This document shows, one piece after another, positions 23,208-64,000 of a stretch of 64,000 bases of DNA; positions within the stretch are counted from its first letter, which is position 1; the number at the start of each line of letters is the position of its first letter. This DNA comes from Hirudinaria manillensis (taxonomy: Eukaryota > Annelida > Clitellata > Hirudinida > Hirudinidae): assembly GCA_034509925.1 (NCBI GenBank), contig CM067526.1:7214501-7278500 (forward strand), read 5' to 3'. The notes under the pieces were generated by a model, which was not told the origin of the DNA, ran no database searches, and was given only the letters and a program-made list of their open reading frames with translations. The position numbers and the translations under genes are program-made.

Positions 23208-24198
<991 letters not shown>

Positions 24199-24332
24199 TG
24201 TTTATTCACAATCACGGCCTCCGCCGGAAAACAGTGACCCCAGATCCCAACAAGGGATCACAGGCAGTCACAACACATCAAGCACAAATAAAATAAAAAC
24301 AGAAAAACAGTCATGAACAAACAGAAACAACA

Positions 24333-24420
24333 AGCAAAAGTCCAAAACTTAAACAAAGTAATTCAATTATACACGCAGCAAAAGTCCAAAACCCAAACAA
24401 AGTAATTCAATTATACACGC
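24333..24420. repeat. 44-bp tandem duplication in LINE 3' UTR
   Basis: Two head-to-tail 44-bp units (24333-24376 and 24377-24420) differ only by TT versus CC. They lie between the ORF stop and the TAA tail of the R4/Dong-like element. Confidence 0.9.
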
Positions 24421-24456
24421 AGCTATTTACAGTTATATACAAAATCCAAATCATTG

Positions 24457-27174
24457 TCAGTTCAATATTCTTCTTAATATATGTGCTGTCCCACACAAAG
24501 CGATTTTCTGCGCCTCAAGAGGAGATGGATTTCCAGGGATGAGATCCAGGTAATCTTTAAATTTCTTTGATGTCATTCCTAATGCACCAACAACCACTGG
24601 TATTACCTGAGATCTCACACCCCACATTCTTTGGATTTCAATTTGTAGGTCTTTATACTTTGTTAATTTTTCCATCTCCTTCCGAGGCACATTCACATCA
24701 TCCGGGACAGCAATATCAATTATTAGACAGTTTCTTCTCTTCTTATCATGGTAAATCAGATCCGGTCTGTTGGCAGGGACTGTTCTATCAGTTATTATTG
24801 GGTAATCCCACATCAACACTCCATGGTCGAACTTTGTAATTCCATTCGGTGTATGTTCGTACCATTTAGTGGTCAGTGGGATCCCGCATTCCCTGCCGAT
24901 TCTCCAATGAACGTACCTGGCAATTCTGTTATGCCTCTCTAAATATTCCGTTGCCGCCAGCATGCTACATCCTGATATTAAGTGGCTAATGCTTTCAATA
25001 TGCTGATGGCACATTCTACATAAGCCATCAGCATCTTGATGCAAAATCATCTTTTTAAAATACTTTGTCTGTAGGGCCTGGTCTTGAGCTGCAATTATTA
25101 GACTTTCTGTTTCAGCCTTCAGGTCACTCTTTCTGAGCCATTGAGTACTTGATTCGTTATCTATGCTTGCATTGTGAAGATTTTTGATGTATTGCCCGTG
25201 CAGCGGTTTCCCTGTAATTCTTTTTAACTTTTCTATTTCCAGGGCATTTTTGAGTTCTTTTCCCAGATGTTCTTTTGTAACATTCAATTTATATTTCAAT
25301 TTAATTTTATTTGTTTCTGTCTGCAGGGAAAATTTTTTCCTAGATTCATCCCATTTTCTTACCAATTGAATCAATCTTCCATCTGTTGCTGCAATATATT
25401 CTCCCAGGTTGAGGATGCTTTGTTGATATGCCGATAACAGTTCAATTATGCCTCTACCCCCATTATTCCTTTTCACATACAGTCTGTCAATATCTGCTCC
25501 TGGGTGGTGCATTCCATTCATAGTTAATATTTTTCTGGTTTTTCTATCACACTTTTCTATTTCTGATTTTACCCAGGGAATTATTCCAAATCCATATGCA
25601 AAAACTGGTACTGCAAAACTATTAATTGCTGTTGTCTTATTTTTGGCACTAAGCTGAGTTTTAAGGATTTTTCTTAATCGACTGTAATATTCCCTTTTTA
25701 CCTTTTCTTTCATCAATTTATTATTTAATCCATCCCGTTCCTCCATTCCAAGGTATTTATACATCTCCTGTGTCTCGAGAGATTTAATTTCTTCTTTTCC
25801 ATCATCCATGAGTTCAATGCCTTTTGTTACAACAGGTTGTCCATGTTTTATTTCAATTGTTGCACATTTTTCAATTCCAAATTCCATACATATGTCTTTG
25901 CTAAATATTTCTACAACTCTTATAACTTTTTGCATATCCTCATGTTCAGATGTAAATAACTTTAAATCATCCATATAGAACAAGTGACTAATTTGTTCTT
26001 TGTGTATTCTATATCCCAGTCCAGTTCTGTTAATTAAATTAGATAGTGGAATTAATGCTATACAAAACAATAAGGGTGATAGTGAGTCTCCTTGAAATAT
26101 TCCTCGATTTATTCCTATTGTTGTTGTTTCAATGTCACCATCGTTATGTCTTAGGGTCATTCTTGTTTTCCATTTCAACATTGACTGAGCAATAAACTGA
26201 ACTATAATATCATTAACATGATAAATCTGCAGAGCTCGAATAATCCATGAGTGAGGGATACTGTCAAATGCTTTTCTGTAGTCGATCCAAGCAATATTTA
26301 AATTCTTTTTAAATTTCTGAGAGTTTTGAACTACCATCTGACTAATAAGTAACTGATCTTTGCATCCTCGGGATCCTTTTCTGCATCCTTTTTGTTCTTC
26401 TGGCAGAATGCTGTTACTTTGAAAGTGGTTGTATATTCTTTTTGATATAGCTGCTGTTAATATTTTATATGTTGTTGGCAGGCATGTGATGGGTCTGTAA
26501 TTCTTTGCTTTAGACGTCTCCTGTGATTTTGGCAGCAAATATGTAATTCCTTCTGTCAGCCAAGTTGGTATCTTAGATGGTTCCTTCATTATTTCATTGT
26601 AAGCATCTGTTAAGTGTTTATGTAGAGCAGTTAACTTTTTAAACCAGAAGTTGTGAATTTTATCTATGCCTGGACTTTTCCAATTATGTGACTGATTAAT
26701 TATACCACTGATTTCTTCAACTTGAAAATCCCTCCATTCATATGCATTTAAATTTGCATGTATTTCTTCTTCATATTTAATCCACTCTGCATCAGAATTA
26801 TAATGTGTTTCCTTTTCTAAGATGTTTCTCCAAAATGTATCAACTGTATTTAATTTAGGTGCATCTACTATTTCAATCTGCTTCGAACTAATGCTTCTGT
26901 AAAATTTCTTGGTATCATTACGAAACATTCTGTTTTGATGGTATTGTTCACTTCTTTTACTGTACCTTCTTAGTCTCTGAGCTTTCGCCTGCAGTTTCAT
27001 TGTGACATCTTGTTCAAGTTCATTAATTTGGTTTAAGGACATTGTGTTCATCCCCATCTGTTTCTTGTGATCCAGATTTCCATTTTTAAATTCCTTTATC
27101 ATAGATAATTGTTTTCTGTATCTGTTTATTGTTTTCTGGATTCTCATCTTCCAGTTAGCAACTTTAAATCTCAC
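24457..27174 (-). CDS. R4/Dong-like reverse transcriptase/RLE ORF (partial)
   Basis: A single open frame of 905 codons. The RT domain spans roughly residues 150-480, with the catalytic YMDD near residue 400 and FQGDSLSPLLF just before it. A Cys-Cys-His-Cys motif (LCRMCHQHIESISHLISGC) lies near residue 725. The restriction-like endonuclease follows, with RPDL near 804, IDIAV near 820 and the lysine-rich KLTKYKDL, then VVVGALG, typical of R4-group LINEs. No ATG begins the frame: it opens with GTG directly after a TAA of the microsatellite, and the first in-frame ATG is codon 10. The N-terminal part is therefore missing and translation of this copy is doubtful. There are no internal stops, so the insertion is young. 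Confidence 0.88.
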   Translation of the reverse strand: MRFKVANWKMRIQKTINRYRKQLSMIKEFKNGNLDHKKQMGMNTMSLNQINELEQDVTMKLQAKAQRLRRYSKRSEQYHQNRMFRNDTKKFYRSISSKQIEIVDAPKLNTVDTFWRNILEKETHYNSDAEWIKYEEEIHANLNAYEWRDFQVEEISGIINQSHNWKSPGIDKIHNFWFKKLTALHKHLTDAYNEIMKEPSKIPTWLTEGITYLLPKSQETSKAKNYRPITCLPTTYKILTAAISKRIYNHFQSNSILPEEQKGCRKGSRGCKDQLLISQMVVQNSQKFKKNLNIAWIDYRKAFDSIPHSWIIRALQIYHVNDIIVQFIAQSMLKWKTRMTLRHNDGDIETTTIGINRGIFQGDSLSPLLFCIALIPLSNLINRTGLGYRIHKEQISHLFYMDDLKLFTSEHEDMQKVIRVVEIFSKDICMEFGIEKCATIEIKHGQPVVTKGIELMDDGKEEIKSLETQEMYKYLGMEERDGLNNKLMKEKVKREYYSRLRKILKTQLSAKNKTTAINSFAVPVFAYGFGIIPWVKSEIEKCDRKTRKILTMNGMHHPGADIDRLYVKRNNGGRGIIELLSAYQQSILNLGEYIAATDGRLIQLVRKWDESRKKFSLQTETNKIKLKYKLNVTKEHLGKELKNALEIEKLKRITGKPLHGQYIKNLHNASIDNESSTQWLRKSDLKAETESLIIAAQDQALQTKYFKKMILHQDADGLCRMCHQHIESISHLISGCSMLAATEYLERHNRIARYVHWRIGRECGIPLTTKWYEHTPNGITKFDHGVLMWDYPIITDRTVPANRPDLIYHDKKRRNCLIIDIAVPDDVNVPRKEMEKLTKYKDLQIEIQRMWGVRSQVIPVVVGALGMTSKKFKDYLDLIPGNPSPLEAQKIALCGTAHILRRILN

Positions 27175-27220
<46 letters not shown>
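27175..27220. repeat. (ATT)n microsatellite between two LINEs
   Basis: About 15 ATT units separate the 5' end of the R4/Dong-like element from the poly(T), that is the poly(A) tail, of the R2-clade element. Both elements are on the minus strand. Confidence 0.95.
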
Positions 27221-27221
<1 letters not shown>

Positions 27222-30200
27222 TTTTTTTTTTTTTCCTTTATTAGCCCAGCCAAAAACTCACAAAAAGCAATCAATTCATACAATTCATAATCCGATTCAA
27301 TAATTTTAGGTCCGCCAATGGGTCTGGGAAATCCCGTCAGACCATTCAAAAAAGGAAACTTTCAAGTCGATCTTACGAGTCATTGTACATTCACAAATGT
27401 AATTCAATTCAACTTCTTTTTTCTTCTTCTCCAGGCGTTATTTTTAAAAGTTCGCCAAATCTTATGGGTCTCCTGCAACGTTTTGATGGAGGTCCACATG
27501 AGGAACCTCCTCGAGACCCCAAATCTTCTCCAAACCCTCCAAGACTCTTCTGCTATTGCTCCTCTCCAGTTCAAGACCAGGGCGGTGATGGTACCTTTCT
27601 GACTCCGTTGTTCTGGCATCGGATTATTTTCCTTCATCCATTGGTGGATTCCCGGAAGGTCATACTTTGCGACTTTTGAAGCATGTATTTTGTTCAAGTC
27701 GGCAATATCCGATGCCACTGCCACGTCACACACGACGTATGTGGAGCCTTTCCATGCGCACAAATCAGGAATTTTTGTTCCTTCTATCGTCGGGATTCTG
27801 GGTTCGATGCTGGTAGTAAACCCCATCTTCTCAAGTTTGCTTCCTAACATGGCCAAAATGGAGTTGTGTCTAACATGTCTAGGACCATCGGTAACATGAC
27901 ACCGCTGTATGATATGGCCCAGCGACTCCTCAGTCCGGCATCCAGCAGTGCAGAGAGTGCTCAAATATATCTTGTACCTAGATTCCCGCAATCTGTTGTG
28001 CAGGACCGCGGCTCTAACCTTCACGCAGTTGATCCATTGATCTGACGTCATTCTGCTAATTCCATCGATTAGCCATTCGCTTGGACCAATGGCGTTTGAA
28101 AATGACTGGAGTCCATACCCGTCAACTGTTTTGTACAGTTGTTTTGCCGTTCTGATGCCCATTGTTTTGGCGTCTGTACAATTCTGTGGGAGACCAAACT
28201 TCCTGACTTCTCCCATCACTGTCGTTCCGCCTCCAAGGACGTCCAGCATGAATTGGTCTCTATTCGCCTTGGCTTCTTTTAAAACCTGTGACATGCGACG
28301 AATTCTTATATTTGGAATCCATTTCCGAAGTTGAAGGATTCCGAGACCTCCCAGTCGGACTGGGGCATACAGAAATGCATTGGGGACGTCCTTCGGTAAT
28401 TTCAACCAATGTCGAACTGTTCGTCTAATGGTGACGTCGGCGGCGTTCAAAGACTTGAGGCTTATTTTTTCGAAGCTGAGATGGTGTACAAGGCCAGGCA
28501 TGAGATGAGTTCTGAGAATGTAGAGTCGCTGATGTGGTTCCAAAGGGGCGCGCGAAATGGAGTGTAGGTCTTTTTGAATTTTTTCTGCTATTGATGCATA
28601 TTTTAATCGTGCCCCAATCTCAATACCAAGATATTTGTAGGTTTCAATGATATTTAGTGCAGTGATTTTCGTGTGTTGAACTTCAAGATATGGTTCCGGA
28701 TTAACAATCCACGATCTTTTTGCGATGTTTATCTCGGTGCGAAGAGATGCGCACTTGATTGGATTCATCGCTAATCCCACCTTAGACATTCCTCCTTCAA
28801 GTTGTTGAAGCATCATCTGCATTCCAACGTCTGTTGTAGACATCAGCAAGAGGTCGTCAGCAAAGGCAACGTAGTTGCATTTTATTTTGGACTCAGCGTC
28901 TCCTGTTACGCCGATTGACTTGTCCACTTCGCTAAGGACCATGTCAATAACGGCATTGAAAAGCATAGGAGACATTGGATCTCCTTGCTTGACGCCTCTG
29001 CCCACTTGAATGCGATTACTAATTCCGTCTGCAGTCTTGATTTGAACCCAACTATTTCTGTACAGTTCTGTCAAGTAATTGATAAACAATGGAGGCGCCC
29101 CGAGTCGAGAAGCAGCTCTCATGATTGATTGATGAGAAACTGAATCAAACGCTTTGGATACGTCTACGAAAGTCAAATTTAACTTTTTCAGTTCCTGCTT
29201 CTTTTTCTTGATGAGGGACTTCACCAACCATATATTATCGGCCAAACCATCTCCTTGACGAAACGCTTTTTGGCGCGGAGACAACGGCAAGAAGGAGATC
29301 ATCCGTCTGTTGAGGATCCTATGAAAGAGTCGACCAATGATTGGGCTCACTGTGATGGGTCTGAACTCGCTTGGGTTGGTGGCTCCACTTATTTTTGGAA
29401 TGCATGTGACGATCCCAATTTTGAATGAAGACGGAGGCAGACCAGTTAACAGCCACAGTGACATGTGAACTGCAAAGTCAATATTCTTGATCCCTTCTAT
29501 GTGCTCTTTTTTTAATTTGTCGTGTCCTGGCGCAGCATCTCGGAGACCTCTAATAGCAGAGTTCACCTCATCGCTGGTGACTGGCAATTCCAAATCATAC
29601 AGAGTTCCGCCAACAGCTGTCACTGGTCTATCATCTTCAACTGACTTTTTTGAGAAAACTTGCTCCCAATACTCGATCAATTCTTTTCCTGGAGTTGCCT
29701 TTGACTTTTCTTTGAATTCCTCTGTCAACACTGACCGTGCCCCTGCTGCTGGATTTTTCCTGAACAAGTCTTGAATGACTTTCCTTTGTCTCTGTCTTTC
29801 AATGGTTCTCAGTTCTTTTTTGCTGAGTCTAGTCTTAACTTTTACGAATATTCGACCTTTGGCATTGTTTGGTTTTGTTCTTTTCTTTTGTGTTGGTCGT
29901 TTCGAATTCTTTCGGATGAATTGTTTACCGGTTGTTGAAGGGAGAAGATTTTCTGTCCACTTGCTATATTCTTTGTCAATTAGCTCCTGCTGAGTGGTCT
30001 TGTCGGTTGAATTGCGGAGCAGCAAGGACAGTTCTTCGCTAGAAAGATGGATGCATTCATAGCGATTCAGAATAAATTGTTGTAGTTTGATTTCACTGTT
30101 TACCATGTCTTCCACTGGATCGAAGGAACAAGGGGCTCTTATTTCTTTTGTTTTCGAAGTTATTTCTTGCATCACGATGTCATTAAGAAATTGGCGATAA

Positions 30201-31116
30201 CTGGGTTTATTTCTGATTTTCCGAATTGATTTAATTGAAAATTGAGGTACGATTCTGTTTATGGCCAGATTGATTCTTTTCTTTTCTAACGAGTTCAAAC
30301 TCAACTCTGCTCTGGCAATGCTTTCCCATCGCTCATCATCATCGTTTACGGAAGGAATGGCTGGACAATCTCTTTCGTTGTTTTCCTCACTTGATTCCGT
30401 AACCTCTCTGTTGTTCGTATCACCAGACTGAGCCCTCAAAATCTTTCGGTAAGACGATTGGCGTCTATGGCTCCTGATGGCTGCCAAGGATCGATGTTGA
30501 AATCTTTTTTGAGCTTCAATGTTTACATTCTTGTAACCTTCCTGCTTTAATTCAACTTCAATTTTTGCAAGCATATGAGATTCTTCTTCCGACCAGCGAC
30601 ACTTGGAGTAGCTTTTTCCGGCCCTATCTCTGTGATATTCAACTGGATGGGCATGGTTTTGATGAATTTTTAGCCCTCGCTCTGTTTTGAATTCGGAGCC
30701 GCAGAATTCGCACTTTCTTGGCGGACATTCTTGTTGTACGCTCTCAATATTCGAACAATGGAGACTGTCGTCGTACACATTTCTCGAACGCAACGTTCTA
30801 ATTAACAATTTTCCTCTGGACTGAATGTCTTCCATATTTCAACCAAAACCAACAAATTGAACGAACTAACTTGAAAGCCTTTTCAAACTGTGAAGTCCTA
30901 TCAACTAAATGACTAGACAATCAACGAAACTGTTGTTTCTAATTCACAGCTTTATTTTCCCCTTTTTTCCAGAAATTATGCTCACCAACCACGAAAAGAT
31001 TGGTAGGGGACACAAATTGACCAGATTTCGAAGCAAAAAATCGTTACGTTAAGCAAAAGCAGTAATTTGTAACGAGCAAACGAAATTTCGTCCGTACCGG
31101 TCAACCGCTCGAGCCG
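27221..31116 (-). mobile_element. R2-clade non-LTR retrotransposon outside rDNA
   Basis: An apparently full-length element of about 3.9 kb on the minus strand. It has a 5' untranslated region of about 280 bp (31116-30836), one intact ORF, a 3' untranslated region of about 170 bp with AATAAA (TTTATT at 27237-27242 on plus), and about 15 adenosines. It is bordered by (TAA)n at 31117-31147 (5' side) and 27175-27220 (3' side). R2 elements normally sit at one site in 28S rDNA, but no rRNA sequence is visible here. The TAA flanks suggest insertion into a microsatellite. Confidence 0.85.
27404..30835 (-). CDS. R2-type ORF: zinc finger, Myb, RT and RLE
   Basis: An intact 1143-codon ORF starting at ATG 30835-30833. 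Residues 42-63 form one C2H2 zinc finger (CEFCGSEFKTERGLKIHQNH) and about 79-130 a Myb-like region; in R2 such N-terminal modules bind target DNA. The RT domain has KAFDSVSH, GVKQGDPMSPMLFN near 617 and the catalytic FADD near 658. Near residue 967 the Cys-Cys-His-Cys motif is followed by RHVRHN, a hallmark of R2 proteins. The endonuclease follows, with IPDL near 1023, CDVAV near 1037 and SKVAKYD near 1050. A single finger is like the R2-D type. No stop or frameshift is present, so this copy may be active or recently inserted. Confidence 0.92.
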   Translation of the reverse strand: MEDIQSRGKLLIRTLRSRNVYDDSLHCSNIESVQQECPPRKCEFCGSEFKTERGLKIHQNHAHPVEYHRDRAGKSYSKCRWSEEESHMLAKIEVELKQEGYKNVNIEAQKRFQHRSLAAIRSHRRQSSYRKILRAQSGDTNNREVTESSEENNERDCPAIPSVNDDDERWESIARAELSLNSLEKKRINLAINRIVPQFSIKSIRKIRNKPSYRQFLNDIVMQEITSKTKEIRAPCSFDPVEDMVNSEIKLQQFILNRYECIHLSSEELSLLLRNSTDKTTQQELIDKEYSKWTENLLPSTTGKQFIRKNSKRPTQKKRTKPNNAKGRIFVKVKTRLSKKELRTIERQRQRKVIQDLFRKNPAAGARSVLTEEFKEKSKATPGKELIEYWEQVFSKKSVEDDRPVTAVGGTLYDLELPVTSDEVNSAIRGLRDAAPGHDKLKKEHIEGIKNIDFAVHMSLWLLTGLPPSSFKIGIVTCIPKISGATNPSEFRPITVSPIIGRLFHRILNRRMISFLPLSPRQKAFRQGDGLADNIWLVKSLIKKKKQELKKLNLTFVDVSKAFDSVSHQSIMRAASRLGAPPLFINYLTELYRNSWVQIKTADGISNRIQVGRGVKQGDPMSPMLFNAVIDMVLSEVDKSIGVTGDAESKIKCNYVAFADDLLLMSTTDVGMQMMLQQLEGGMSKVGLAMNPIKCASLRTEINIAKRSWIVNPEPYLEVQHTKITALNIIETYKYLGIEIGARLKYASIAEKIQKDLHSISRAPLEPHQRLYILRTHLMPGLVHHLSFEKISLKSLNAADVTIRRTVRHWLKLPKDVPNAFLYAPVRLGGLGILQLRKWIPNIRIRRMSQVLKEAKANRDQFMLDVLGGGTTVMGEVRKFGLPQNCTDAKTMGIRTAKQLYKTVDGYGLQSFSNAIGPSEWLIDGISRMTSDQWINCVKVRAAVLHNRLRESRYKIYLSTLCTAGCRTEESLGHIIQRCHVTDGPRHVRHNSILAMLGSKLEKMGFTTSIEPRIPTIEGTKIPDLCAWKGSTYVVCDVAVASDIADLNKIHASKVAKYDLPGIHQWMKENNPMPEQRSQKGTITALVLNWRGAIAEESWRVWRRFGVSRRFLMWTSIKTLQETHKIWRTFKNNAWRRRKKKLN

Positions 31117-31147
<31 letters not shown>
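31117..31147. repeat. (ATT)n microsatellite at the 5' end of the R2-clade element
   Basis: About ten ATT units passing into AGT units. It marks the upstream border of the R2-clade insertion on the minus strand. Confidence 0.9.
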
Positions 31148-32462
31148 GTAGTAGTAAAGCTTTTTCTTGTACGAACTGACCAGTTACGGGCAGATTCTTT
31201 AATTTGGCAGAGCAGAGCCATTCAAAGACTCTCTCAATTACATGACTGTATTGACATTCCGTGTTTTGGATTCTCTTTCACTTCTTGCTCCATGTTCCCA
31301 TTTCTTTCGTATTTCCTTTCTTCATTATAATGTTCGATATTTGGTGTCTGCTAACTCTGAAGTCGTTGGAGAGTTTTGAGATAGAATTGCCCGTTTCAAA
31401 ACTTTTAAACACTTCCATTATTTTTCCACTGAAAGTCAATGCTTTTTCTGCGGATCCATAGCTAATAGTTTACCGATAACGAAAACATCATAAAACACAA
31501 AGAATGAAAGATAAAGGAGTTTGAACAAAAGATCAAACACGTTTTTCCATGAAATGCTTAAAAAATTAACAAATTTAAAGCATTTAACTAATTTTCGGCA
31601 AACATCCCTATTTACAGTTTCAGAACCATAAGAGGCATGCCCTAAGTCAAGTTTGACAGGTGGACTTTAAATAGGCGTCAAATTGTATTGGGAAAAAATC
31701 GTTTCCTAGAAAAAGTGGCCCTAACGACAGGTTTTACCCTATTTTTGGGTGCTCTAATCCAAAGGTTCTACATTAAAAACAGGTATAATCATTATCCTAG
31801 ATGTCAATCAGCTTGATGGGCGGATTTACGAGGGCTTTACCGGAATGCTTTAATTGCAGAGCGAGGAAACTGGATAATTGGATAATCTCGGAGCAAACGC
31901 AGGCAGCCCAGATAGCAATAACATCGGAACCGGAAGACGATTGAAAGCCGGCTTATATGGCTTGGAGCGGTTAGGTTACGGTTCGGCAAAGGTTCATTGA
32001 AGCTGGGCCGACGTACGGCGTCCAGCTATTGCAATTAAATAAAATTTTTGATTAATAAAATAAAAACATCTTAACTATCGACTCGCAATCACTTTTAAAT
32101 TTTAACAAAGGTTTATTTTTGTTTTGTTTGTTAATAAGGGGTTTTTAAGTTGAATCGTCCGAATGAATATTGAATAATAAACTCCACCCATTAAGAAGAT
32201 TGAGATCTGTGTTGGCTGACAGTTAAGCGGTATCAGATTTTGTTTAATGCCGTGACGCGTGGGTAGGGTACCCTGTTTTAGGGTATGTATCGTTCTCGGA
32301 TTAGGTTTTATTAGGATTTTGTTCTATGCCATAAGCGATGTGGTTTATATCACTAAAATATAAACAAATATAAAACATAGGTAATAGTAACAACTGAGTT
32401 TGATATAGTAATTATATTTAATTTAAAAGGTCTCGAATGCGACTGTGTATGGTGTGGGAAGA
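31148..32462. other. Intergenic sequence with an unexplained GC-richer patch
   Basis: No gene recognised. Around 31640-32040 the sequence is clearly richer in GC than its surroundings, for example near 31900-32030. No coding frame or terminal repeats are evident. It may be a transposon remnant, but I could not classify it. Confidence 0.4.
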
Positions 32463-39000: not shown

Positions 39001-42000
39001 CCCAGGCCAGCTCATCAACTAGAGGTGCGATGATTGGCCAGGAGACCTTCTCTGAGGATCCCTGTCGGAAAGCTCCGAGGAGGAGTTTCCAGCATCTAAC
39101 AGTATGCTCCGCGAGGGCTCCGCCGTCCGAAAAACCATCAAAGTCGCCATTGCTGCACTTCTTATATCACTTTGGTGTATATGTCGTCCGGGGTGTTTCT
39201 TTCCTGTCCTTAAACTGGAGTCACTGTTTTGGTGGAGTGGACATTGACGACTTGCCTCGCCGTGCCTGAGGCTTACCTTCGGTCCTTCATGGTCCAAATC
39301 CAATGAGAACTTGGCTATTCTCTGGACGAACTGTTTGGTTTGCCTGTTTGAAAGGCCTATCTTCCTGAGAAAGGCGTAGGTAGACTTGCCTACCAGTCCT
39401 CTCGCTCCGACTTCTATTGGCAACACACGGGCGCTATACCCTTTCCCCTCTAAATCCATCTTCAGCTCTTCGTAACGGTCGCTTTTCAGAGCATTGCTGA
39501 CATCCATTGGGACTGTCAGCTCTACCATTATGACGGAATCGATTGCTGCCGACGCTAGCACCAAATGAGGCCGCTTGCCGCTCTCTTGTAGCACCTGGTG
39601 ATAGTGCCTTTCCCCCTGCAGGTCTGCCGTAACTGTCCAGTCTTTGGCTGTGGACAGCAAGTCCCTCCTTTGGGCCATGTTTCTTTTGCGGTGCTGTGTC
39701 AACACAGCCCTCTCTTAAGAAGTACATCCTTCTTGGTGCCGCGATTTCTCGGGCATTTGCCTGGGAGCATGCTGTCTTAGCCGCCTCGACCATTACCTGC
39801 AGGACTTGCTTATGTCGCCATGTGTAGCGATCATGAGCAAAGGCGTATGTGCATGATGAAAGCACATGTCAGAGTGACTGTGCACCTCCGCAGAGTTCGC
39901 AGCTGGCGTCTTGAACCATCCCCCACTTCTGTAAGTTGGACCCGGAAGGGAGCACGACCGACCTTATGAGGAATGCCAAGCGGAGGGGAGACTTTCTCCA
40001 AATGTCTTTCCATGTGATGGATCTTTGGATGACGCCTTCCCAGGTTGTCCACTGTCTTGCTGGCTTTGCTGCCAGCGCAATCCTTTCGGTCTCCATCTCT
40101 CGCCTTCTCTCTTGGACTATCATGGCAGCTTTTGTCTGCACATTCGCTGTGGACCATCTTGAAAAATGGTTCCATCCGACTCCATGGCGGTTTACTTGCA
40201 TGGGTTCTCTTTTCTCCTCGAAGGCTAGGATTGCCTCGGATTCCTCGATTTCTTCCTGGGCTCTGAATTTCCTTCCTGACGAAGTTATGGCATGACATCG
40301 CGGACCCTGCTGTCACTGGAGTTGTTGAGCGACCATTGGGTTCTTATTTTGCTAATTTTATATTCTTCAACAATGGATCTGAGGTGTAGCCTCAACCGTG
40401 TGCTCTTGCTGTACAGGGCGACTGACGACAGCGAAGGCGGCAACCCGAACCATTTCCTTGCACACCGATTTATTTTCCTTTCCATCTCTTCTACTGACTG
40501 CAGGCCTATTTCATAGATGGTCAGTGGCCACAGTAGTCTTGGTAGCAGGACGAATTGCAGGAGCCAGACTTTGAATCTGCCCTGTAGCGGTGATTCTGCA
40601 ACGTTTCAGACCGTCGGTCATCCTACTGACAGTGTCTGCCTCCTGGTTTTTGTCACGAAGGAACTCGTCGAAAACTCTTCCCAAGCTCTTTAATGGCTCT
40701 TCTGAGACCGTCGGAATGCGATGTCCTCCGGCGGTGAAGCACACGTCGCTGCGAACTCTCCCTCTTGTAAGAGAAAGACTCAGGGATTTTGTGGGCTTCG
40801 GAGCCATGCGACACCATTGGAGTAGATCATTGAGCTTGTCAAGGGCTCTTTGGACAATCTGCTGCCTGTTTAGAACGATGGTGGTGTCGTCCATGAAAAC
40901 CTTTACTGAAGGCATAAACACCCCTCTACCCAAGCGCATCTCAGGGATCTCAGCCCCTACTGCATTTAGTACGACTTGGATGGCAAGCACAAACAGCGAT
41001 GGGGAAATGGCACATCCCATGGCTATGCCGATCTGCAGAGGGATCCAACACGTGGTGCAATCTTTCGTGGAAAAACGCATCACGTAACCGTTGAAGTATT
41101 CTTTGAGTACCTTAATTACAGTTCCAGGAACATGGTGGATCTCTAACGTCTTCCAGAGGAGTTGATGGGGCACCGATATATATATATATATTATGATGTA
41201 TACCAGCCATCCCTGTGCAACAAATAATGTATGAAAATGAAAGAGTTTAATAGCATTTTTTTAATAGAATTTTTAACATAATCAATATTTACAGTGTTAA
41301 GCTTTGATTATGTGTACTGTTTATGTTTTTATGTACTACTAGAGTTGCCAAGCCATGCATTGCTATGGCTCAATCTGATTAATTTTATAAGAAAGAAATT
41401 TTCTAATGTGTTTATTTTTACAATTTCACAATGCTTGAGGGTTACAATAGTTTAAGCTTTTTAATGTCTCGCTAAAGTTTATTTATTGTTAGGCAGTGAC
41501 GTTATCATGGCAGGATGGCAGGATTTTCGAAAAAAGTTTATTTTTACATGATATACTTGTGGCATATATATGAAACCTATATAAAAACACTCTAATCGAG
41601 CACTATGTTGTGTCAAAATTTCAAAGCAATTGGTTAAGTACTTTCAGAGAACATTTACATGATACAAATACACATTGCATTTTTATTTATATAGATTTGT
41701 ATAATGCTTGAGTTTTTAGCTAAACTCACTTGACCATTTTTTCTTAATAAATTTTTCTTAACCTTTAAAAAATGTTCATGATTTTGTTAATATGAAGGAG
41801 GCATCATTCCAAGAAACAATTAAAATTTTGATTTAAATTATTAAACATTTGCAGTCTTTGATTCTATGGATATGTCAAGGTCCAATTCTATGACAAGTAG
41901 TGGTCAATGCAGACTAGCACCTCTCATACCGTGCATTCAAGACTCTTGCCAGCTCTATCATTTGCTTGTTCAATTCTTATTCAAGTTACATTCAAGTTAG

Positions 42001-56533: not shown

Positions 56534-58971
56534 TTAAATCTGTTCGTCCCGAACAGACTGTTCTGTTTCTCCGTGATATTTTGCTAATCGATTGCTGTGG
56601 ACCACTTTCATTCTAGTCCTTGCTGATTTCTGTATGCGGTATACCACGTCGTTTATTTTCTTTATGATTCGGTATGGTCCTTCCCAATCTTTTTGTAACT
56701 TTGGCGACTTCCCTTTTTTTCGTTGGGGGTTGTATAGCCAGACTAGTTCATTTTCTTTAAAGCTTATATCATTGGCTTGCCTATCGTATCTCGCTTTGGC
56801 TTGATCGCTATTAACACTAATATTTTTCCGGGCAACCTGGTGTGTATCGGCCAATGTATTTCTTAGGCTTGAAACGTAGTCACATGCCGACTTAGGTTCC
56901 TCTGCTCTTCCGAACACCATATCGGCAGGAAGACGGATCTCCCTCCCGAATGTCATTTTCGATGGACTGATTCCTGTCGTTTTATGCACGGCTGTCCGGT
57001 AGGCCATAAGGAAAAGTGGCAGGTATCTGTCCCAGTCATCTTGCTGTTCAGTTACCATTTTTGACAAATACTGTTCCATGGTCCTGTTAAATCTCTCGAC
57101 CATACCGTCCGATTGCGGATGCAATGCAGTGGTTCTTGTCTTATGGATTCCAAGGTTTTCGCATAGCTCTTGAAATATTTTCGACTCGAAATTCCTTCCT
57201 TGGTCCGAATGTAACTCTAATGGCACCCCGAATCGACTAATCCAATTATTTACGAGAGCATCAGCTACATTTTCCGCCTCCTGATTTGGCAGTGCAAACG
57301 CTTCGGTCCATTTGGTGAAGTAATCGCTGATCACTAATATGTACCGATTTCCCTTCTTTGATGCAGGGAATGGTCCGGCAATATCCAAAGCTATTCTTTC
57401 AAAAGGTACTCCCACATTATAGGGTTGCATTAGACCTTTAGTCTTCTTTTGAGGACCTTTACTGGTTGCGCAATTATTGCAATTTCTACACCACTCCTCA
57501 ACGTCTTGTTTGTAGTGCAACCAGTAAAACCTCTCCCTCACCTTCCTGATGGTTTTATTCACTCCTAGGTGTCTACCTGAGGTTCCGTTATGGAATTCTT
57601 GTAACACCTCAGAGACGCAAGATCTCGGAAGTACTATTTGAAGGTGATAGTCGGTGCCATCCTCTGTTTCCCACTTCCTATGTAGGAGTCCATTACTAAT
57701 TCTCAAGGAATACCACTGTGCCCAATAGGACTTAGTAACTTCTCCGTGCTCCGCTATCTGTTGCCAATCTGGTTTCACCCCGGCCTCCATCCACTGTAGT
57801 ATGGGTGCAAGTGCTTCGTCTCTTAATTGTAGATCTCGTAACCCGCTTTCTGTCCAGGGTTCGGGAACCGTGATACGAATTTGTCGACATTCTTCGGTCT
57901 CCTGTTTTTTCTCTGCGTTGTTGCAGTGCCTGCAGTTAAGTTGACAAGGACGTCGTGATAGCGTATCAGCGTTGTTGTGTATTTGACCTCTCCTGTGTTC
58001 AATATTGAACTGAAAACCCTGTAGTCTTTCAATCCACCTCGCCATTTGACCTTCTGGGTTCTTAAAGTTTAACAGCCACCTCAGAGAGGCGTGATCCGTT
58101 CTTAGCAAAAACGGCTGGCCCAAAAGATATTTCTGGAAGTGTTTCATGGATTCTACTGCTGCTAATAATTCTCTCCTGGTTACGCAATAGTTTCTTTCCG
58201 CTTTGGACAGTGAACGGCTATAGAATGCTAGAACTTTTTCTTCGTTTTCAACCTGCTGGGAAAGAACTGCCCCGATTCCACAGTTACTGGCATCTGTATC
58301 GAGGATAAAAGGTAATCCGGGAATAGGATATGCCAGGATCGGTGCCGTTGTCATAGCTTCTTTCAGATTATTAAATGCTTTCTCACAGCTGCCGTTCCAG
58401 ATAAATGGCTTGCCTTTTACAGTAAGCTCATGAAGGCTTTTTGCGATGTTTGAAAAGTTGGCAATAAATCGTCTGTAATAGGTACAAAGTCCTAAGAAGC
58501 TTTGAAGTTCTTGGATATTTTTGGGTACGGGCCAATTTTTCACTACATCGACTTTATCTGGATCTGTACTAACACCTTCAGAAGACACGATATGGCCAAG
58601 GTATTTGACTTCTTTTTTAAAGAGTGAGCATTTCTTTGGACTCAGTTTCATGCCTGCCTCTCTAATCCTACTAAACACTTTTCGGAGGTTGTCTAAATGT
58701 TCTCCAAATGTTTTTCCGACAACAATTATGTCATCTAAATATACCAGGCATACTTTCCAGTTGAGTCCCCTTAGTATGTGTTCCATTAATCTTTCAAACG
58801 TCGCGGGGGCATTGCATAGCCCGAACGGCATGACAGTGAATTGCCATAATCCTTCACCTGTCGAGAAGGCCGTTTTTTCTCTATCGTCAGGATGTAACTC
58901 CACCTGCCAGTAACCACTTTTGAGATCTAACGTGGAAAAAATTTTTGATCCCGAGAGAGTGTCTAAAGTAT
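56534..58971 (-). CDS. Gypsy copy A Pol, 5' cut
   Basis: The frame is open from the junction at 58971 to the stop at 56534, about 812 codons. It starts in RT at TLDTLSGSKIFSTLDLKSGY, so there is no true start codon; the first GTG at 58903 only looks like one. It keeps the catalytic YLDD (about 58745), RNase H (DTDASNCGIGA), the integrase HHCC zinc region and SDQGRN, and ends in a GPY/F-type tail without a chromodomain. It is nearly identical to copy B. One difference is HNGTSGRHLGVN here versus HNGTSGGHLGVN in B, near the zinc-binding histidines. Confidence 0.88.
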
Positions 58972-59192
58972 TGTTGTAACCCGGGGTCTGATGAATTAAT
59001 TAACGTAAGGATATCTTTATTGGATTTAACTAATGGCAAATACGGCTGGACGATTTGGTCGATTGCTTGTCCCGACGGAACTGCCTAATGACTCGAATCG
59101 CTAGATACGACTTCGAAATAAAAGATTCTGAATATTAACTAAACTTAATTAATTAATTATTTAATTAATTAATTAATGTCAGGGATCCAACA
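58972..59192 (-). repeat. 3' LTR of Gypsy copy B
   Basis: 221 bp, TG...CA ends. The adjoining bases in copy A, AGTAT (58967-58971), should be the target-site duplicate. Confidence 0.92.
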
Positions 59193-59203
59193 TTACCCCC
59201 TCC

Positions 59204-62200
59204 TTAAATCTGTTCGTCCCGAACAGGCTGTTCTGTTTCTCCGTGATATTTTGCTAATCGATTGCTGTGGACCACTTTCATTCTAGTCCTTGCTGATTTC
59301 TGTATGCGGTATACCACGTCGTTTATTTTCTTTATGATTCGGTATGGTCCTTCCCAATCTTTTTGTAACTTTGGCGACTTCCCTTTTCTTCGTTGGGGGT
59401 TGTATAGCCAGACTAGTTCATCTTCTTTAAAACTTACATCATTGGCTTGCCTATCGTATCTCGCTTTGGCTTGATCGCTATTAACACTTATATTTTTCCG
59501 GGCGACCTGATGTGTGTCGGCAAGTGTATTTCTTAGGCTTGAAACGTAGTCACATGCCGACTTAGGTTCTTCTGCTCTTCCGAACATCATATCGGCAGGA
59601 AGACGAATCTCCCTCCCGAATGTCATTTTCGATGGACTGATTCCTGTCGTTTTATGCACGGCTGTCCGGTAGGCCATAAGGAAAAGTGGTAGGTATCTGT
59701 CCCAGTCATCTTGCTGTTCACTTACCATTTTTGACAAATACTGTTCCATGGTCCTATTAAATCTCTCGACCATACCGTCCGATTGCGGATGTAATGCAGT
59801 GGTTCTTGTCTTATGGATTCCAAGGTTTTCGCATAGCTCTTGAAATATTTTCGACTCGAAATTCCTTCCTTGGTCCGAGTGTAACTCTAATGGCACCCCG
59901 AATCGACTAATCCAATTATTTACGAGAGCATCAGCTACATTTTCCGCCTCCTGATTTGGCAGTGCAAACGCTTCAGTCCATTTGGTGAAGTAATCGCTGA
60001 TCACTAAAATGTACCGATTTCCCTTCTTTGATGCAGGGAATGGTCCGGCAATATCCAAAGCTATTCTTTCAAAAGGTACTCCCACATTATAAGGTTGCAT
60101 TAGACCTTTAGTCTTCTTTTGAGGTCCTTTACTGGTTGCGCAATTATTGCAATTCCTACACCACTCCTCAACGTCTTGTTTGTAGTGCAACCAGTAAAAC
60201 CTCTCCCTCACCTTCCTGATGGTTTTATTCACTCCCAGGTGTCCACCTGAGGTTCCGTTATGGAATTCTTGTAACACCTCAGAGACGCAAGATCTCGGAA
60301 GTACTATTTGAAGGTGATAGTCGGTGCCATCCTCTGTTTCCCACTTCCTATGTAGGAGTCCATTACTAATTCTCAAGGAATCCCACTGTGCCCAATAGGA
60401 CTTAGTAACTTCTCCGTGCTCCGCTATCTGTTGCCAATCTGGTTTCACCCCAGCCTCCATCCACTGTAGTATGGGTGCAAGTGCTTCGTCTCTTAATTGT
60501 AGATCTCGTAACCCGCTTTCCGTCCAGGGTTCGGGAGCCGTGATGCGAATTTGTCGACATTCTTCGGTTTCCTGTTTTTTCTCTGCGTTGTTGCAGTGTC
60601 TGCAGTTAAGTGGACAAGGACGTCGTGATAGCGCATCAGCGTTGTTGTGTATTTGACCTCTCCTGTGTTCAATATTGAACTGAAAACCCTGTAGTTTTTC
60701 AATCCACCTCGCCATCTGACCTTCTGGGTTTTTAAAGTTTAGCAGCCACCTCAGGGAGGCGTGATCCGTTCTTAGCAAAAACGGCTGGCCCAAAAGATAT
60801 TTCTGGAAATGTTTCATGGATTCTACTGCTGCTAATAATTCTCTCCGGGTCACGCAATAGTTCCTTTCCGCTTTAGACAGTGAGCGGCTATAAAATGCTA
60901 GAACTTTTTCTTCATTTTCAACTTGCTGGGAAAGAACTGCTCCGATTCCACAGTTACTGGCATCTGTATCGAGGATAAAGGGTAATCCGGGAATAGGATA
61001 TGCCAGGATCGGTGCCGTTGTCATAGCTTCTTTCAGATTATCAAATGCTTTTTCACAGCTGTCGTTCCAGATAAATGGTTTGCCTTTTACAGTAAGCTCA
61101 TGAAGGCTTTTTGCGATGTTTGAAAAGTTGGCAATAAATCGTCTGTAATAGGTACAAAGTCCTAAGAAGCTTTGAAGTTCCTGGATATTTTTGGGTACAG
61201 GCCAATTTTTTACTACCTCGACTTTATCTGGATCTGTACTAACACCTTCAGAAGACACGATATGGCCAAGGTATTTGACTTCTTTTTTAAAGAGTGAGCA
61301 TTTCTTTGGACTCAGTTTCATGCCTGCCTCTCTAATCCTACTAAATACTTCTCGGAGGTTGTCTAAATGTTCTCCAAATGTTTTTCCGACAACAATTATG
61401 TCATCCAAATATACTAGGCATACTTTCCAATTGAGTCCCCTTAGTATATGTTCCATTAATCTTTCAAACGTCGCTGGGGCATTGCATAGCCCGAACGGCA
61501 TGACAGTGAATTGCCATAGTCCTTCACCTGTCGAGAAAGCCGTTTTTTCTTTATCGTCAGGATGTAACTCCACTTGCCAGTAACCACTTTTGAGATCTAA
61601 TGTGGAAAAAATTTTTGATCCCGAGAGAGTGTCTAAAGTGTCATCGATTCTAGGTAAGGGGTAGCTGTCCTTAAGTGTCATTTCGTTCAGCTTTCTATAG
61701 TCGACACAAAAACGAAGTGATCCGTCTTTCTTCTTAACGAGTACCACCGGTGAGCTCCAGGGGCTATTTGACGGTTCAATAACCCCTTGGTCTTGCATTT
61801 CTTTTATCATTTCCTTGGCGTTTGCTCTTGTAGCTAAAGGAAGTGGACGGGGGTTTTGTCGAATGGGTTTAGCACCGGCCGTATTTATTTGATGTTGCAC
61901 GAGGTTAGTCCTACCCAAAGGGCTGTCTTGTTCAGCCATTATATCCTGAAATTCGCTAAGCAGATTTTTCGCTTGTTGATAATCTTCTTTTTGTAGAGTT
62001 TTGTCTAAATCTTTCAGGAGATTGTCCATTAATGGTTTAGACATAGTATCCCTTTTGATATGCTTATTTCCACTTCCATCTAATGTTAATATGCGTTCCA
62101 CGTTCCTGCAAAGTGCGATAGGTGTTCCTGCTTTGATCTGTTGTTCCTGGTCAGATAGATTCATTACCCTCAGTGGAACTCTGCCGGTGTTCAGCTTGAC

Positions 62201-64000
62201 TAGTGCTCGTCCTATTAGTAGTCCTTGGCCAATGCCCGATTGATCTTCGACTGCTCCTATACCAAATTTTGTATAGTCGCCTTCTAGCCCGCCCCAAATT
62301 AAGCTTTCCGACTGTGCCGGGATGGTCTCGTTTTGTAATACTTTTACAAACGTGTCTTTGACTTCTGTACCTCCGTAGTGTAGAGGAATCTCCATTGCTC
62401 CTTGTTGAAGGGTGCCGCCCTTCATGTCAATGGAAATTCCATAGCGTCGCATGAAATCCAATCCCAGTATACATTCGTCTGTTATATTGGCTATCATAAA
62501 TTCCTGTTCGAATGACTTGCCTCCTAAATCCACTGTAATAGTTGTGGTTCCTTGAACTGGCACTAATTCTCCGGTGGCTGTTTTTAGCTTGTAGTTGTTG
62601 GTCGTTACTTTACTGTTTCTTGCCAACTTTGGTTGGACAATAGAAGTAGATGCCCCTGTGTCTATTACAAGATTATATTCTTTCCCTCCAATTTTCCCTT
62701 TAACCTCTAGTGATGATCCTTTTCCTAATGCTGTAACGTGAAAGACGAGTGGGGCATTTCGAGTTTGCTGAAACGATCTTTGCCCCTTAAAATTAGTAGC
62801 TTCAGGTTTTTCTGATTTATAGGGCTCTCTCCAGTACTGCGGATTTTTGGAGAAGGTCGTTCTACATTCTCGGGCTAAATGGCCAGGCTTGTTGCACCTG
62901 AAGCACCTTGGTCTTCTATCTACTACCTGGAATCTTAAGTTTCTTTGGGGCTTGCTGAGGTCATTGATTTGTCGAGCTATTTTTGTAATCATCTCTCTGT
63001 CTTTGTCATTATCTTTATCTTTCTCCTTGCCTCTGTCTTCCTGAGCTTCAATTTTCTTTACATTCAAGCTTTTTTGGATTGAGGCTCTTGCCGCTTCCAT
63101 GGAGATTGCAAACGCCAATGCTTCATGGCTGGCCTTTATTCCATGAATTTTTAGTGCCATTTTGGTTTCCGCATCCCTTATCCCATCAACGAAGGCGTCA
63201 GTTATAATGTTTTCAATGAAATCCGTTGACTGTCTTGGATGGGCTAAGTATGCGAGCCTTCTGACGTCAGCTTCTAATTCTTGGAGTGATTCGCCCTGTT
63301 TTTGCGTACGGTTTTTTAATTCGTTTTTATGTACTTCCAGCATGTGGCCATTCCCAAATCTTCTTTCCATTGCTTCTGCTATTTCTGAATAGGCTTTACA
63401 GTGGAGCATTGTTTGCAAAAGCTCGGCTGCCCTTCCTCGCAGTACCATTATCAGTTCTGTTGCTTTTTCCTCCTCGGTCCACTTGTTACGTTCAGCGGCA
63501 GTTTCAAACTGATGTCTGAACACTGCCCATGGCCCTTGTCCGTCGAATAATGGTGGTCTTGTCGTTTTCTCTCTTCCATATGTCTCTGTTTTCGATTCAT
63601 TGTATTTTTTAAACTTCTCTATTTCCCTCCTCTGCTCTTCTTTTAGTGCATCTAATTCTGCTTTAACCTTTCTCAGGTCGGCCATCTCCTTGGATGATCT
63701 GAGGTTGGCTACGTCCGTTTTTACCTCTTCCATGGATGTCTGGAATTTGGCTGCATCAGTTCTTACCTCTTCCCGCAGAACATCCATGGATGTCTGGAAT
63801 TTGGCTACGTCTGTCTTTACCTGCTCCCGTAAGACATCCATGGCTACCTGGAAGTTGGCTATATCGGATTTCATATCCGACCGCAAATCATCAATGTCGC
63901 ATTTCATATCTGACCGCAAAGTGCCCATGCCGCAAATCATATCTGACCGCAAAACATTATTGTCGCATTTCATATCTGACCGCAAAGCATCCAGGGCATT
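59204..64000 (-). CDS. Gypsy copy B Gag-Pol polyprotein, N-terminus outside the window
   Basis: A single open frame of about 1598 visible codons, still open at 64000. Counting from 63985: residues 1-110 are coiled-coil repeats (LRSDMKCD units of 11 residues, then VKTDVAKFQTSM units), 145-330 a retrotransposon Gag domain, and about 363 a zinc knuckle (CFRCNKPGHLARECRT). The aspartic protease (VIDTGAS) is near 443 and RT, with YLDD, near 855. RNase H (DTDASNCG) is near 1006, the integrase HHCC zinc finger at about 1245-1285, the integrase core with SDQGRN near 1368, and the C-terminal GPY/F-like module near 1540. No chromodomain. Gag and Pol are in one frame with no frameshift between them. Confidence 0.92.
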   Translation of the reverse strand, partial: NALDALRSDMKCDNNVLRSDMICGMGTLRSDMKCDIDDLRSDMKSDIANFQVAMDVLREQVKTDVAKFQTSMDVLREEVRTDAAKFQTSMEEVKTDVANLRSSKEMADLRKVKAELDALKEEQRREIEKFKKYNESKTETYGREKTTRPPLFDGQGPWAVFRHQFETAAERNKWTEEEKATELIMVLRGRAAELLQTMLHCKAYSEIAEAMERRFGNGHMLEVHKNELKNRTQKQGESLQELEADVRRLAYLAHPRQSTDFIENIITDAFVDGIRDAETKMALKIHGIKASHEALAFAISMEAARASIQKSLNVKKIEAQEDRGKEKDKDNDKDREMITKIARQINDLSKPQRNLRFQVVDRRPRCFRCNKPGHLARECRTTFSKNPQYWREPYKSEKPEATNFKGQRSFQQTRNAPLVFHVTALGKGSSLEVKGKIGGKEYNLVIDTGASTSIVQPKLARNSKVTTNNYKLKTATGELVPVQGTTTITVDLGGKSFEQEFMIANITDECILGLDFMRRYGISIDMKGGTLQQGAMEIPLHYGGTEVKDTFVKVLQNETIPAQSESLIWGGLEGDYTKFGIGAVEDQSGIGQGLLIGRALVKLNTGRVPLRVMNLSDQEQQIKAGTPIALCRNVERILTLDGSGNKHIKRDTMSKPLMDNLLKDLDKTLQKEDYQQAKNLLSEFQDIMAEQDSPLGRTNLVQHQINTAGAKPIRQNPRPLPLATRANAKEMIKEMQDQGVIEPSNSPWSSPVVLVKKKDGSLRFCVDYRKLNEMTLKDSYPLPRIDDTLDTLSGSKIFSTLDLKSGYWQVELHPDDKEKTAFSTGEGLWQFTVMPFGLCNAPATFERLMEHILRGLNWKVCLVYLDDIIVVGKTFGEHLDNLREVFSRIREAGMKLSPKKCSLFKKEVKYLGHIVSSEGVSTDPDKVEVVKNWPVPKNIQELQSFLGLCTYYRRFIANFSNIAKSLHELTVKGKPFIWNDSCEKAFDNLKEAMTTAPILAYPIPGLPFILDTDASNCGIGAVLSQQVENEEKVLAFYSRSLSKAERNYCVTRRELLAAVESMKHFQKYLLGQPFLLRTDHASLRWLLNFKNPEGQMARWIEKLQGFQFNIEHRRGQIHNNADALSRRPCPLNCRHCNNAEKKQETEECRQIRITAPEPWTESGLRDLQLRDEALAPILQWMEAGVKPDWQQIAEHGEVTKSYWAQWDSLRISNGLLHRKWETEDGTDYHLQIVLPRSCVSEVLQEFHNGTSGGHLGVNKTIRKVRERFYWLHYKQDVEEWCRNCNNCATSKGPQKKTKGLMQPYNVGVPFERIALDIAGPFPASKKGNRYILVISDYFTKWTEAFALPNQEAENVADALVNNWISRFGVPLELHSDQGRNFESKIFQELCENLGIHKTRTTALHPQSDGMVERFNRTMEQYLSKMVSEQQDDWDRYLPLFLMAYRTAVHKTTGISPSKMTFGREIRLPADMMFGRAEEPKSACDYVSSLRNTLADTHQVARKNISVNSDQAKARYDRQANDVSFKEDELVWLYNPQRRKGKSPKLQKDWEGPYRIIKKINDVVYRIQKSARTRMKVVHSNRLAKYHGETEQPVRDEQI

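Follow-up and report, generated by a model that had tools for sequence, protein, structure and literature searches.

An R2-superclade retrotransposon of the buffalo leech that has probably exchanged 28S rDNA for (TAA)n arrays as its target

R2 is a well-known element with its insertion site in the ribosomal RNA genes, and R2 proteins are in development for RNA-templated gene insertion because of their fidelity to one site. In the part of Hassan et al. (2026) available to us, R2 is defined by homology together with insertion into 28S, and the Myb domain is named as an R2 hallmark (PMC13188248). For R2Bm, the available text of a structural study describes contacts of Arg125 to A-22 and of Lys149 to A-31, 9 bp apart, and of loop 6a to the central GC (PMC10499050). 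A preliminary description of a 64,000-nt stretch of the Hirudinaria manillensis genome (the window) had reported an intact R2-clade element at 27221..31147 and suggested that it may have switched its target to TAA repeats. The host assembly matches this species, and AGA/AGG at serine positions of COX1 led us to drop an ascidian as host. We favor the reading, with a probability of roughly 0.7, that this element belongs to a recently active family of the R2 superclade (family D), with R2Bm of R2 lineage D as the closest known structure, whose target has changed from 28S rDNA to (TAA)n.

The window copy is a full-length R2-like, RLE-type non-LTR element of ∼3.9 kb (27221..31118), which like all other features given here lies on the minus strand. 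Its 5′ end is at 31116-31118 and its 3′ A tail at 27221-27234. The limit of 27221 in the preliminary description stands, and the part beyond 31118 is the (TAA)10 array on the 5′ side (31118..31147). On the 3′ side, (TAA)15 (27175..27219) separates the element from a neighboring non-LTR element. Rfam was run on 27100-31300 down to E = 10 and no rRNA family scored, which agrees with the earlier observation of (TAA)n on both sides and no rRNA.

The intact ORF of 1143 aa (27404..30835) contains all of the domains previously assigned to it. A C2H2 zinc finger at aa 42-63 (30647..30712; C42, C45, H58, H63) aligns to the R2Bm finger and is followed by a Myb-like region at aa 78-136 (30428..30604), which is recognized by the R2Bm ZnF-Myb alignment only and has no Pfam call. 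The reverse transcriptase occupies aa 479-738 (28622..29401; Pfam RVT_1, E 4.3e-30) with FADD at aa 658-661. Further downstream are a CCHC knuckle with R2Bm-like spacing at aa 962-979 (27899..27952) and, at aa 985-1136 (27428..27883), the RHN motif and a restriction-like endonuclease that aligns to the R2Bm RLE, with PRHVRHN at aa 985 and the RLE signature PD at aa 1023. Besides the generic RT family above the cut-off, Pfam gave one weak chance match below it, and the sole NCBIfam match was a weak group II RT far below the cut-off.

Upstream of the ORF a conserved 5′ RNA region (30956..31111) contains CGAG, a P2-like helix and GTGTCCCC ... GGGGAAA, motifs common to family D and three related families, A, B and C. 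The P2-like pairing is possible in B, C and D with differing letters and is weak in A. Rfam detected no ribozyme in 27100-31300, as the two matches listed were both far below their gathering scores. The 5′ end of family D may carry an HDV-like ribozyme, with P2-like pairing across B, C and D and no Rfam match, and any cleavage is putative.

The best PDB relative of the ORF is R2Bm (E 2.7e-110), to which aa 30-136 and 416-1131 align. The first of these segments matches the ZnF-Myb region with an i-Evalue of 1.7e-10, and the second matches R2Bm 388-1103 with RT, CCHC and RLE colinear. Of the features of the R2 superclade, three are found in family D: an N-terminal C2H2 finger before the RT, Myb (by alignment only) and a colinear RT-CCHC-C-terminal RLE. 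The ADD-to-YLG distance, taken as a measure of the loop 6a insertion, is 72 in both family D and R2Bm, 70 in R2A and 69 in the neighboring element with a 905-aa ORF, and loop 6a of R2Bm aligns to family D without a gap. RT identity is 31–32% between family D and R2Bm plus two R2A proteins, 31–35% between R2Bm and R2A, and 20% between family D and the 905-aa neighbor. In a five-row RT tree, among whose rows HERO, R4, R8 and R9 are not included, family D joined R2Bm at 98/98 on long branches. The AU test did not reject a position of family D outside the sampled R2s (p = 0.31); for family D with R2A p was 0.10. A tree of five rows is too small to fix the position. Membership in the R2 superclade has good support from the ZnF-Myb-RT-CCHC-RLE architecture and from a similarity to R2Bm that extends from the finger through the RLE, and to this extent the earlier R2-clade assignment holds; the RT tree leaves the alternative placement unrejected.

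Family D could instead belong to the HERO clade, and would then be a known kind of element with a known type of target. We consider this unlikely, yet it deserves some weight. HERO also encodes an RLE, and some HERO families are cited as microsatellite-specific with reference to a leech report (Helobdella, Repbase Reports 2014) in the available part of PMC4640811. HERO-1_HR, listed in PMC7650587, has a leech host as family D does; it is of another clade by name and is set apart from family D by description only. HERO is disfavored by an ORF that has both ZnF and Myb and, between finger and RLE, is colinear with R2Bm, and by the RT divergence of family D from the R2s, which falls inside the R2A-R2D range. 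The Myb argument, which follows the hallmark status given in PMC13188248, is weakened by the report of a Myb/SANT-like domain in R4/Dong too (PMC7998251, available text).

The family D copies whose flanks were read lie outside 28S, in an assembly where rDNA is hardly found, so that 28S copies could be missed. In probe searches, the R2 28S site (2 mismatches) and an 18S 3′ motif (2 mismatches) were found at 0 places in the assembly, neither miss being proof, and one 28S motif (1 mismatch) was found at 2 places. Insertion at the 28S AAGG/TAGC site, which marks R2 sensu stricto, was not seen in this hardly assembled rDNA, where unseen 28S copies are possible; the flanks consist of TAA instead. 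By the definition of Hassan et al. (PMC13188248, as far as available), family D is an R2-homologous element and not R2 itself.

To collect further copies from the host assembly we used a 3′-UTR probe, which yielded 92 copies on 14 contigs. In 84/92 copies the 60 nt next to the 3′ end hold at least two TAA units, and seven readable 3′ junctions do not have two units. Exact TAATAA starts at the first T past the tail in 59 of 91 readable copies. As only 0.25% of the positions on each strand of the window begin a TAATAA, chance is excluded. The 5′ flanks are TAA-rich in 35 of 46 readable cases, among them all 20 near-full-length copies, compared with a background of 95/10,000 windows (∼1%). The 11 flanks under the threshold include L111, whose TAA-rich flank scored negative after truncation at a secondary BLAST start. 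Extraction of other copies with both flanks, as proposed in the preliminary description, therefore bears out its claim of a TAA site preference, which these 92 copies, together with the target duplications in some of them, strongly support.

The tail of the I factor is made by slippage. If the TAA of family D were likewise a slippage-made tail and insertion itself random, a variable A tail could well precede it, as is seen at the 3′ ends. However, TAA also stands 5′ of the element in those 35 of 46 flanks, which refutes an element tail for most copies. Flank-to-flank shared matches that extend into unique sequence were found in L014 (29 nt), L040 (22 nt), L041 (68 nt) and L045 (78 nt). In L041 and L045 the two flanks have TAA plus 38–51 nt of other DNA in common. 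Because such duplications hold TAA together with adjacent unique DNA, TAA is the target and not a tail; we regard the tail explanation as scarcely credible. L016, with six of its 19 shared nt outside the repeat, is a weak case, and L024 was dropped as a 28-nt duplication since only two bases leave the repeat. Duplication of unique sequence is absent in several copies with short downstream TAA (L106, L108, L118, L120 and L123).

The copies are partly dependent, as seven lie within a duplicated stretch (C11:1.36-1.45 Mb) and the pairs L024/L025, L028/L029 and L077/L078 are duplicates with common flanks. Such duplicates are what one would expect if the element itself were unspecific, with a pattern that reflects only spread by duplication of TAA-rich DNA, or loss of insertions elsewhere. 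The unique flanks nevertheless differ among most of the 92 copies on their 14 contigs, and 39 other long loci are 96–99% identical to the window copy. With a TAA-rich background of only ∼1% of windows, selection alone would have to purge almost every insertion. This explanation is very improbable. Family D was apparently active recently. Its copies are often 5′ truncated; among the 20 near-full-length copies, 19 start at element nt 1-11 (13 of these at nt 3 or 4) and 11 keep the ORF (≥1135 aa). The dN/dS of the ORF is 0.17 (55 pairs), showing purifying selection.

A different clade, R4/Dong, has long been known for (TAA)n targets: the available text of PMC7998251 gives (TAA)n as the insertion site of Dong for most insects, molluscs and cnidarians, and duplications are known for R4, as for R8 and R9 (PMC3636483, in part). 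Family D shares the (TAA)n target. The same text of PMC7998251 describes R4/Dong proteins as lacking N-terminal zinc-finger motifs, whereas family D has a C2H2 finger, and its RT is 31% identical to R2 against 20% to the neighbor, itself no more than an R4-like candidate. An R4/Dong identity is accordingly disfavored and, in our estimate, most unlikely. The neighbor itself (24197..27174; 905-aa ORF) is a candidate R4/Dong-like element with an RLE-like C-terminus by eye. It is bounded by (TAA)n, with (TAA)32 on its 3′ side (24101..24196), as read at the window copy alone.

Of the related families, B, a second R2-like family, has 39–40 of 48 3′ ends in TAA, C adjoins D in a TAA array, and A is mixed (TAA in 8/30). 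Over the compared regions, B and C show 49–57% identity with D.

The comparison of finger and Myb residues with R2Bm, also proposed earlier, matched R125 and K149 with R53 and K78 of family D in a sequence alignment; family C has Lys at the position equivalent to R125. In loop 6a, His673 and Lys675 of R2Bm align with Ala705 and Arg707 of family D. We favor the idea that the switch kept both adenine contacts of R2Bm and changed the loop-6a GC contact. TAA arrays would fit both adenine contacts, because 9 bp is exactly three TAA units. More tentatively, a leech R2-superclade lineage may have left rDNA and radiated into at least B, C and D, all landing in TAA arrays that they share alongside a Dong-like element; the adenine contacts would have been kept and the loop-6a GC contact lost, since two contacts at a spacing of nine bases are both met by a period of three.

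For the residues that read TAA, the priming and the order of nicks we infer the following. Upstream of the site, AT-rich repeats would be recognized by ZnF and Myb, and the RLE would nick the bottom (TTA)n strand beside a TAA unit. The 3′ end released by this nick would serve as primer for reverse transcribing the element RNA, which could pair with (TTA)n through its 3′ end, its A tail or a read-through UAA tail. The top strand would be cut downstream at a variable distance, at least in some copies, giving target duplications (shared matches of ∼22–78 nt).

The proposed target switch gains from the TAA preference of the 92 copies and from the R2 architecture, and is held back by an RT tree that does not reject a place outside the sampled R2s. 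A TAA-specific R2 was not found in the literature searched, in which non-rDNA members of the superclade are described as non-specific. Family D would add a specific non-rDNA target to the superclade and an annelid to its hosts. A natural R2 relative in which the same modules read a trinucleotide repeat would show the contacts that set the target, and several related families are on offer for comparison.

Family D shares with R2Bm and R2 lineage D one C2H2 finger, Myb, an RT with a putative insert of loop-6a length, CCHC and RLE, colinear from finger to RLE. It differs in its altered loop-6a residues and in residing in TAA arrays, whereas R2 resides in 28S; some of its copies have long duplications, while most R2s make deletions. 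R4/Dong elements are likewise RLE elements in (TAA)n, but of another protein lineage. R8 (Hydra, 18S) and R9 (rotifer, another 28S site) resemble family D in being members of the R2 superclade whose target has changed and is duplicated, according to the literature, yet their targets remain within rDNA, whereas that of family D is a dispersed microsatellite. R2NS-1_SMed, R2NS-1_CSi and sponge R2-homologous elements also lie outside 28S; the accessible accounts describe them without target specificity, in contrast to the specific target of family D.

The window element, whose family we call D, runs on the minus strand from a 5′ end at 31116–31118 to a 3′ A tail at about 27221. The preliminary description had claimed a 1143-codon ORF bounded by (TAA)n on both sides, and both features were recovered: an ORF of 1143 aa lies at 27404–30835 (minus strand), and (TAA)15 and (TAA)10, as read on the sense strand of the element, directly abut its 3′ and 5′ ends, respectively. 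The best relative of known structure for the D protein is the 28S R2 protein R2Bm (8gh6; E = 2.7e-110), which aligns over aa 30–136 (zinc finger and Myb region) and aa 416–1131 (from the RT through the RLE). The R2 chains 9nl2, 9nl3 and 9dou also match, with scores below that of R2Bm; 9dou carries the name R2Tg, 9nl3 is nearly identical to it, and we take 9nl2 to be from turtle and treat all three as R2 lineage A. RT was the sole Pfam family above the cut-off.

Further copies were sought in the host assembly (148.4 Mb in 23 contigs). The Hirudinaria manillensis assembly is described as 13 scaffolds of 14.76–8.30 Mb together with nine smaller ones and a mitochondrial genome of 15,581 bp (PMC10671345). 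Host COX1, which reads in the invertebrate code, was seen with equal score and length on a chromosome (C9:3026446–3027786) and on the mitochondrial contig (C23:31–1371); the former is either a recent nuclear copy or an assembly join. A DNA search with D gave at least 42 matches, and as the best 40 of 319 candidate places were scored, such counts are minimum numbers of copies. A 3′-UTR probe of 28 bases, with two mismatches allowed, detected 92 copies, which are partly non-independent: seven sit in a duplicated stretch of contig C11 (1.36–1.45 Mb), and the locus pairs L024/L025, L028/L029 and L077/L078 have common flanks.

The 3′ junction was read in all 92 probe-found copies. In 84 of them, two or more TAA units occur in the 60 nt next to the 3′ end; one of the others enters a gap (L020) and seven lack two TAA units. 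By a stricter measure, the first T beyond the tail opens an exact TAATAA in 59 of the 91 readable copies. The tail usually consists of one to three G and then A; most tails measure 6–16 nt, the longest 51 nt. The 5′ flanks came from 40 loci and from 13 of 20 additionally fetched ones (the stretch fetched for the other seven did not include the junction); of these 53, seven run into gaps and 46 are readable. Of the 46, 35 have 30% or more of their last 60 nt in TAA runs, a threshold reached by 95 of 10,000 windows drawn at random from the 64-kb window. All 20 copies at or near full 5′ length are TAA-flanked, among them L017, which starts at nt 152, and L047, which has an internal deletion. Below the threshold are 11 flanks: in L041 and L045 the duplication begins in TAA, followed by 38–51 nt of other DNA; L028/L029 and L030/L031 form two pairs with identical flanks within each pair; L111 was counted from a mis-cut flank; and L110, L113, L120 and L125 are rearranged, borderline or unexplained. 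The check proposed for the family, reading the flanks of other copies, returned mostly (TAA)n on either side, and the copies read lack the 28S insertion that defines R2 proper.

Matches between the two flanks are measurable only where the target leaves the repeat, and many D copies have pure repeat on both sides. Shared matches of 22 nt (L040), 29 nt (L014), 68 nt (L041) and 78 nt (L045) were found, lengths in which repeat units and as many as two A's of the tail are counted; each has 12–51 nt outside the repeat. In L040 the match is followed by 16 unmatched nt on the 5′ side. L016 is a weaker case, with a 19-nt match of which six nt are outside the repeat, and no duplication of this sort was found in L106, L108, L118, L120 and L123 despite a short downstream repeat. 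Because the shared matches leave the repeat, we conclude that TAA is part of the target and not only of the tail, and that in some copies the second cut is downstream of the first. The 5′ end is sharply defined: among the 20 near-full-length copies, 19 begin at nt 1–11, 13 of these 19 at nt 3 or 4, and a few extra bases often precede the start.

An ORF of at least 1135 aa is kept in 11 of the 20 near-full-length copies, with a mean dS of 0.034 and a dN/dS of 0.17 among them (55 pairs, 1138 codons). The 39 other long D loci are 96–99% identical to the window copy. These sequence comparisons suggest recent activity of family D and selection for its protein.

A genome search with an R2Tg-like RT fragment (9nl3) yielded several R2-like families (95 matches scored of 1114 candidates), assigned to loci by position and told apart by open frames of ∼1144 (D), ∼1160 (C), ∼1172 (A) and ∼1197 aa (B). 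Inside the same TAA array, D is adjoined by B at L018, L025 and L042 and by C at L015; A lies across a long TAA array from D at L023. At all these loci the neighbouring families share their orientation relative to TAA. Identity to D is 49–55% for B in the pieces seen, 57% for C over aa 41–127 only, and 47–49% for the end of a further family (L026/L027), with one short stretch at 63%. For B, TAATAA lies within 15 nt at 39 listed places, and probably one more, of 48 exact 3′ ends. For A, it lies within 8 nt of 8 of 30 exact 5′ ends, and ten of the 22 ends without it sit in one cluster (C12:359–413 kb). The cluster region, C12:356000–416500, holds 10 of the 30 exact ends mostly in ∼4.4-kb steps, as if by head-to-tail insertion or tandem duplication. 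For C, the TAA context comes from the junctions beside D.

Another non-LTR element with a 905-aa ORF, a candidate R4/Dong-like one, adjoins D in the window at 24197–27174 (minus strand), with TAA on both sides. At least 19 places in the genome match its whole 2771-base query, the other 18 at 97–98% (40 of 150 candidates scored). The window also contains two closely similar Gypsy-like pol ORFs in tandem (789 and 1593 aa; 56534–63985, minus strand) and, at 39019–41173 (minus strand), two ORFs with pieces that by eye resemble another RT-bearing non-LTR element.

RT identity is 30.6% between D and R2Bm, 31.6 and 31.9% between D and two R2A proteins, 30.6 and 34.9% between R2Bm and R2A, and 19.9% between D and the adjoining 905-aa element. 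A five-row RT tree groups D with R2Bm (98/98) on long branches. A position of D outside the sampled R2s (p = 0.31) and its grouping with R2A (p = 0.10) both pass the AU test, and we therefore file D as an R2-superclade, R2-homologous element. The earlier R2-clade assignment is supported at the level of the superclade by the similarity to R2Bm. The serious rival is that D may belong to the HERO clade, because the source that PMC4640811 gives for microsatellite targets in HERO is a report on a leech HERO family, and because the RT comparisons covered R2 proteins and the adjoining element.

For the R2-homologous element, the contacts of R2Bm suggest how TAA may be read. R2Bm recognizes an upstream motif, A-31 WWW GC NNN A-22; its finger contacts A-22 (Arg125), its Myb domain A-31 (Lys149) and its loop 6a the GC (His673 and Lys675) (PMC10499050). 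In the proposed finger and Myb comparison, sequence alignment matched Arg125 and Lys149 to R53 and K78 of D, but the R53 position, Arg in family B, is Lys in family C. Loop 6a aligns gap-free, and its two contact residues correspond to Ala705 and Arg707 of D. The two adenine contacts, nine bases apart, would span three TAA units, so that an array would satisfy both in one phase; we hypothesize that D may read TAA in this way.

Common to families A–D are CGAG near the 5′ end, GTGTCCCC ∼95–115 nt in, and GGGGAAA farther on. A helix of about nt 8–22 with the bases immediately before GTGTCCCC is possible in D, C and B, whose paired bases differ; for a region picked after inspection and one sequence per family, 3′-strand shuffles reached it in 6 (D), 60 (C) and 0 (B) of 2000 trials, against 263 of 2000 in A, where the helix is weak. 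A second short helix, of CGAG with bases ∼30–45 nt on, is seen in D, C and A but is unclear in B; in D it shares two bases with the first helix. Rfam gave no ribozyme match at 27100–31300. The helix order recalls that of HDV-like ribozymes, which R2 and Dong are known to carry (PMC3774820), and self-cleavage is putative.

R2 was not yet found in Annelida as of Kojima et al. (2016; PMC5035012), and the main text of Hassan et al. (2026; PMC13188248) contains neither “annelid” nor “leech”. Among titles and abstract starts, with Repbase and closed journals outside the scope, no paper on a TAA-specific R2 was found. R8 and R9 are named as target-changed (Kojima et al., 2016). D uses TAA arrays, whereas the two R2NS families (Kojima et al., 2016) and the sponge R2-homologous elements (Hassan et al., 2026) are described as lacking site specificity. 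In the target duplication of some copies D is like R8, R9 and R4 and unlike most R2s, which make deletions (PMC3636483).
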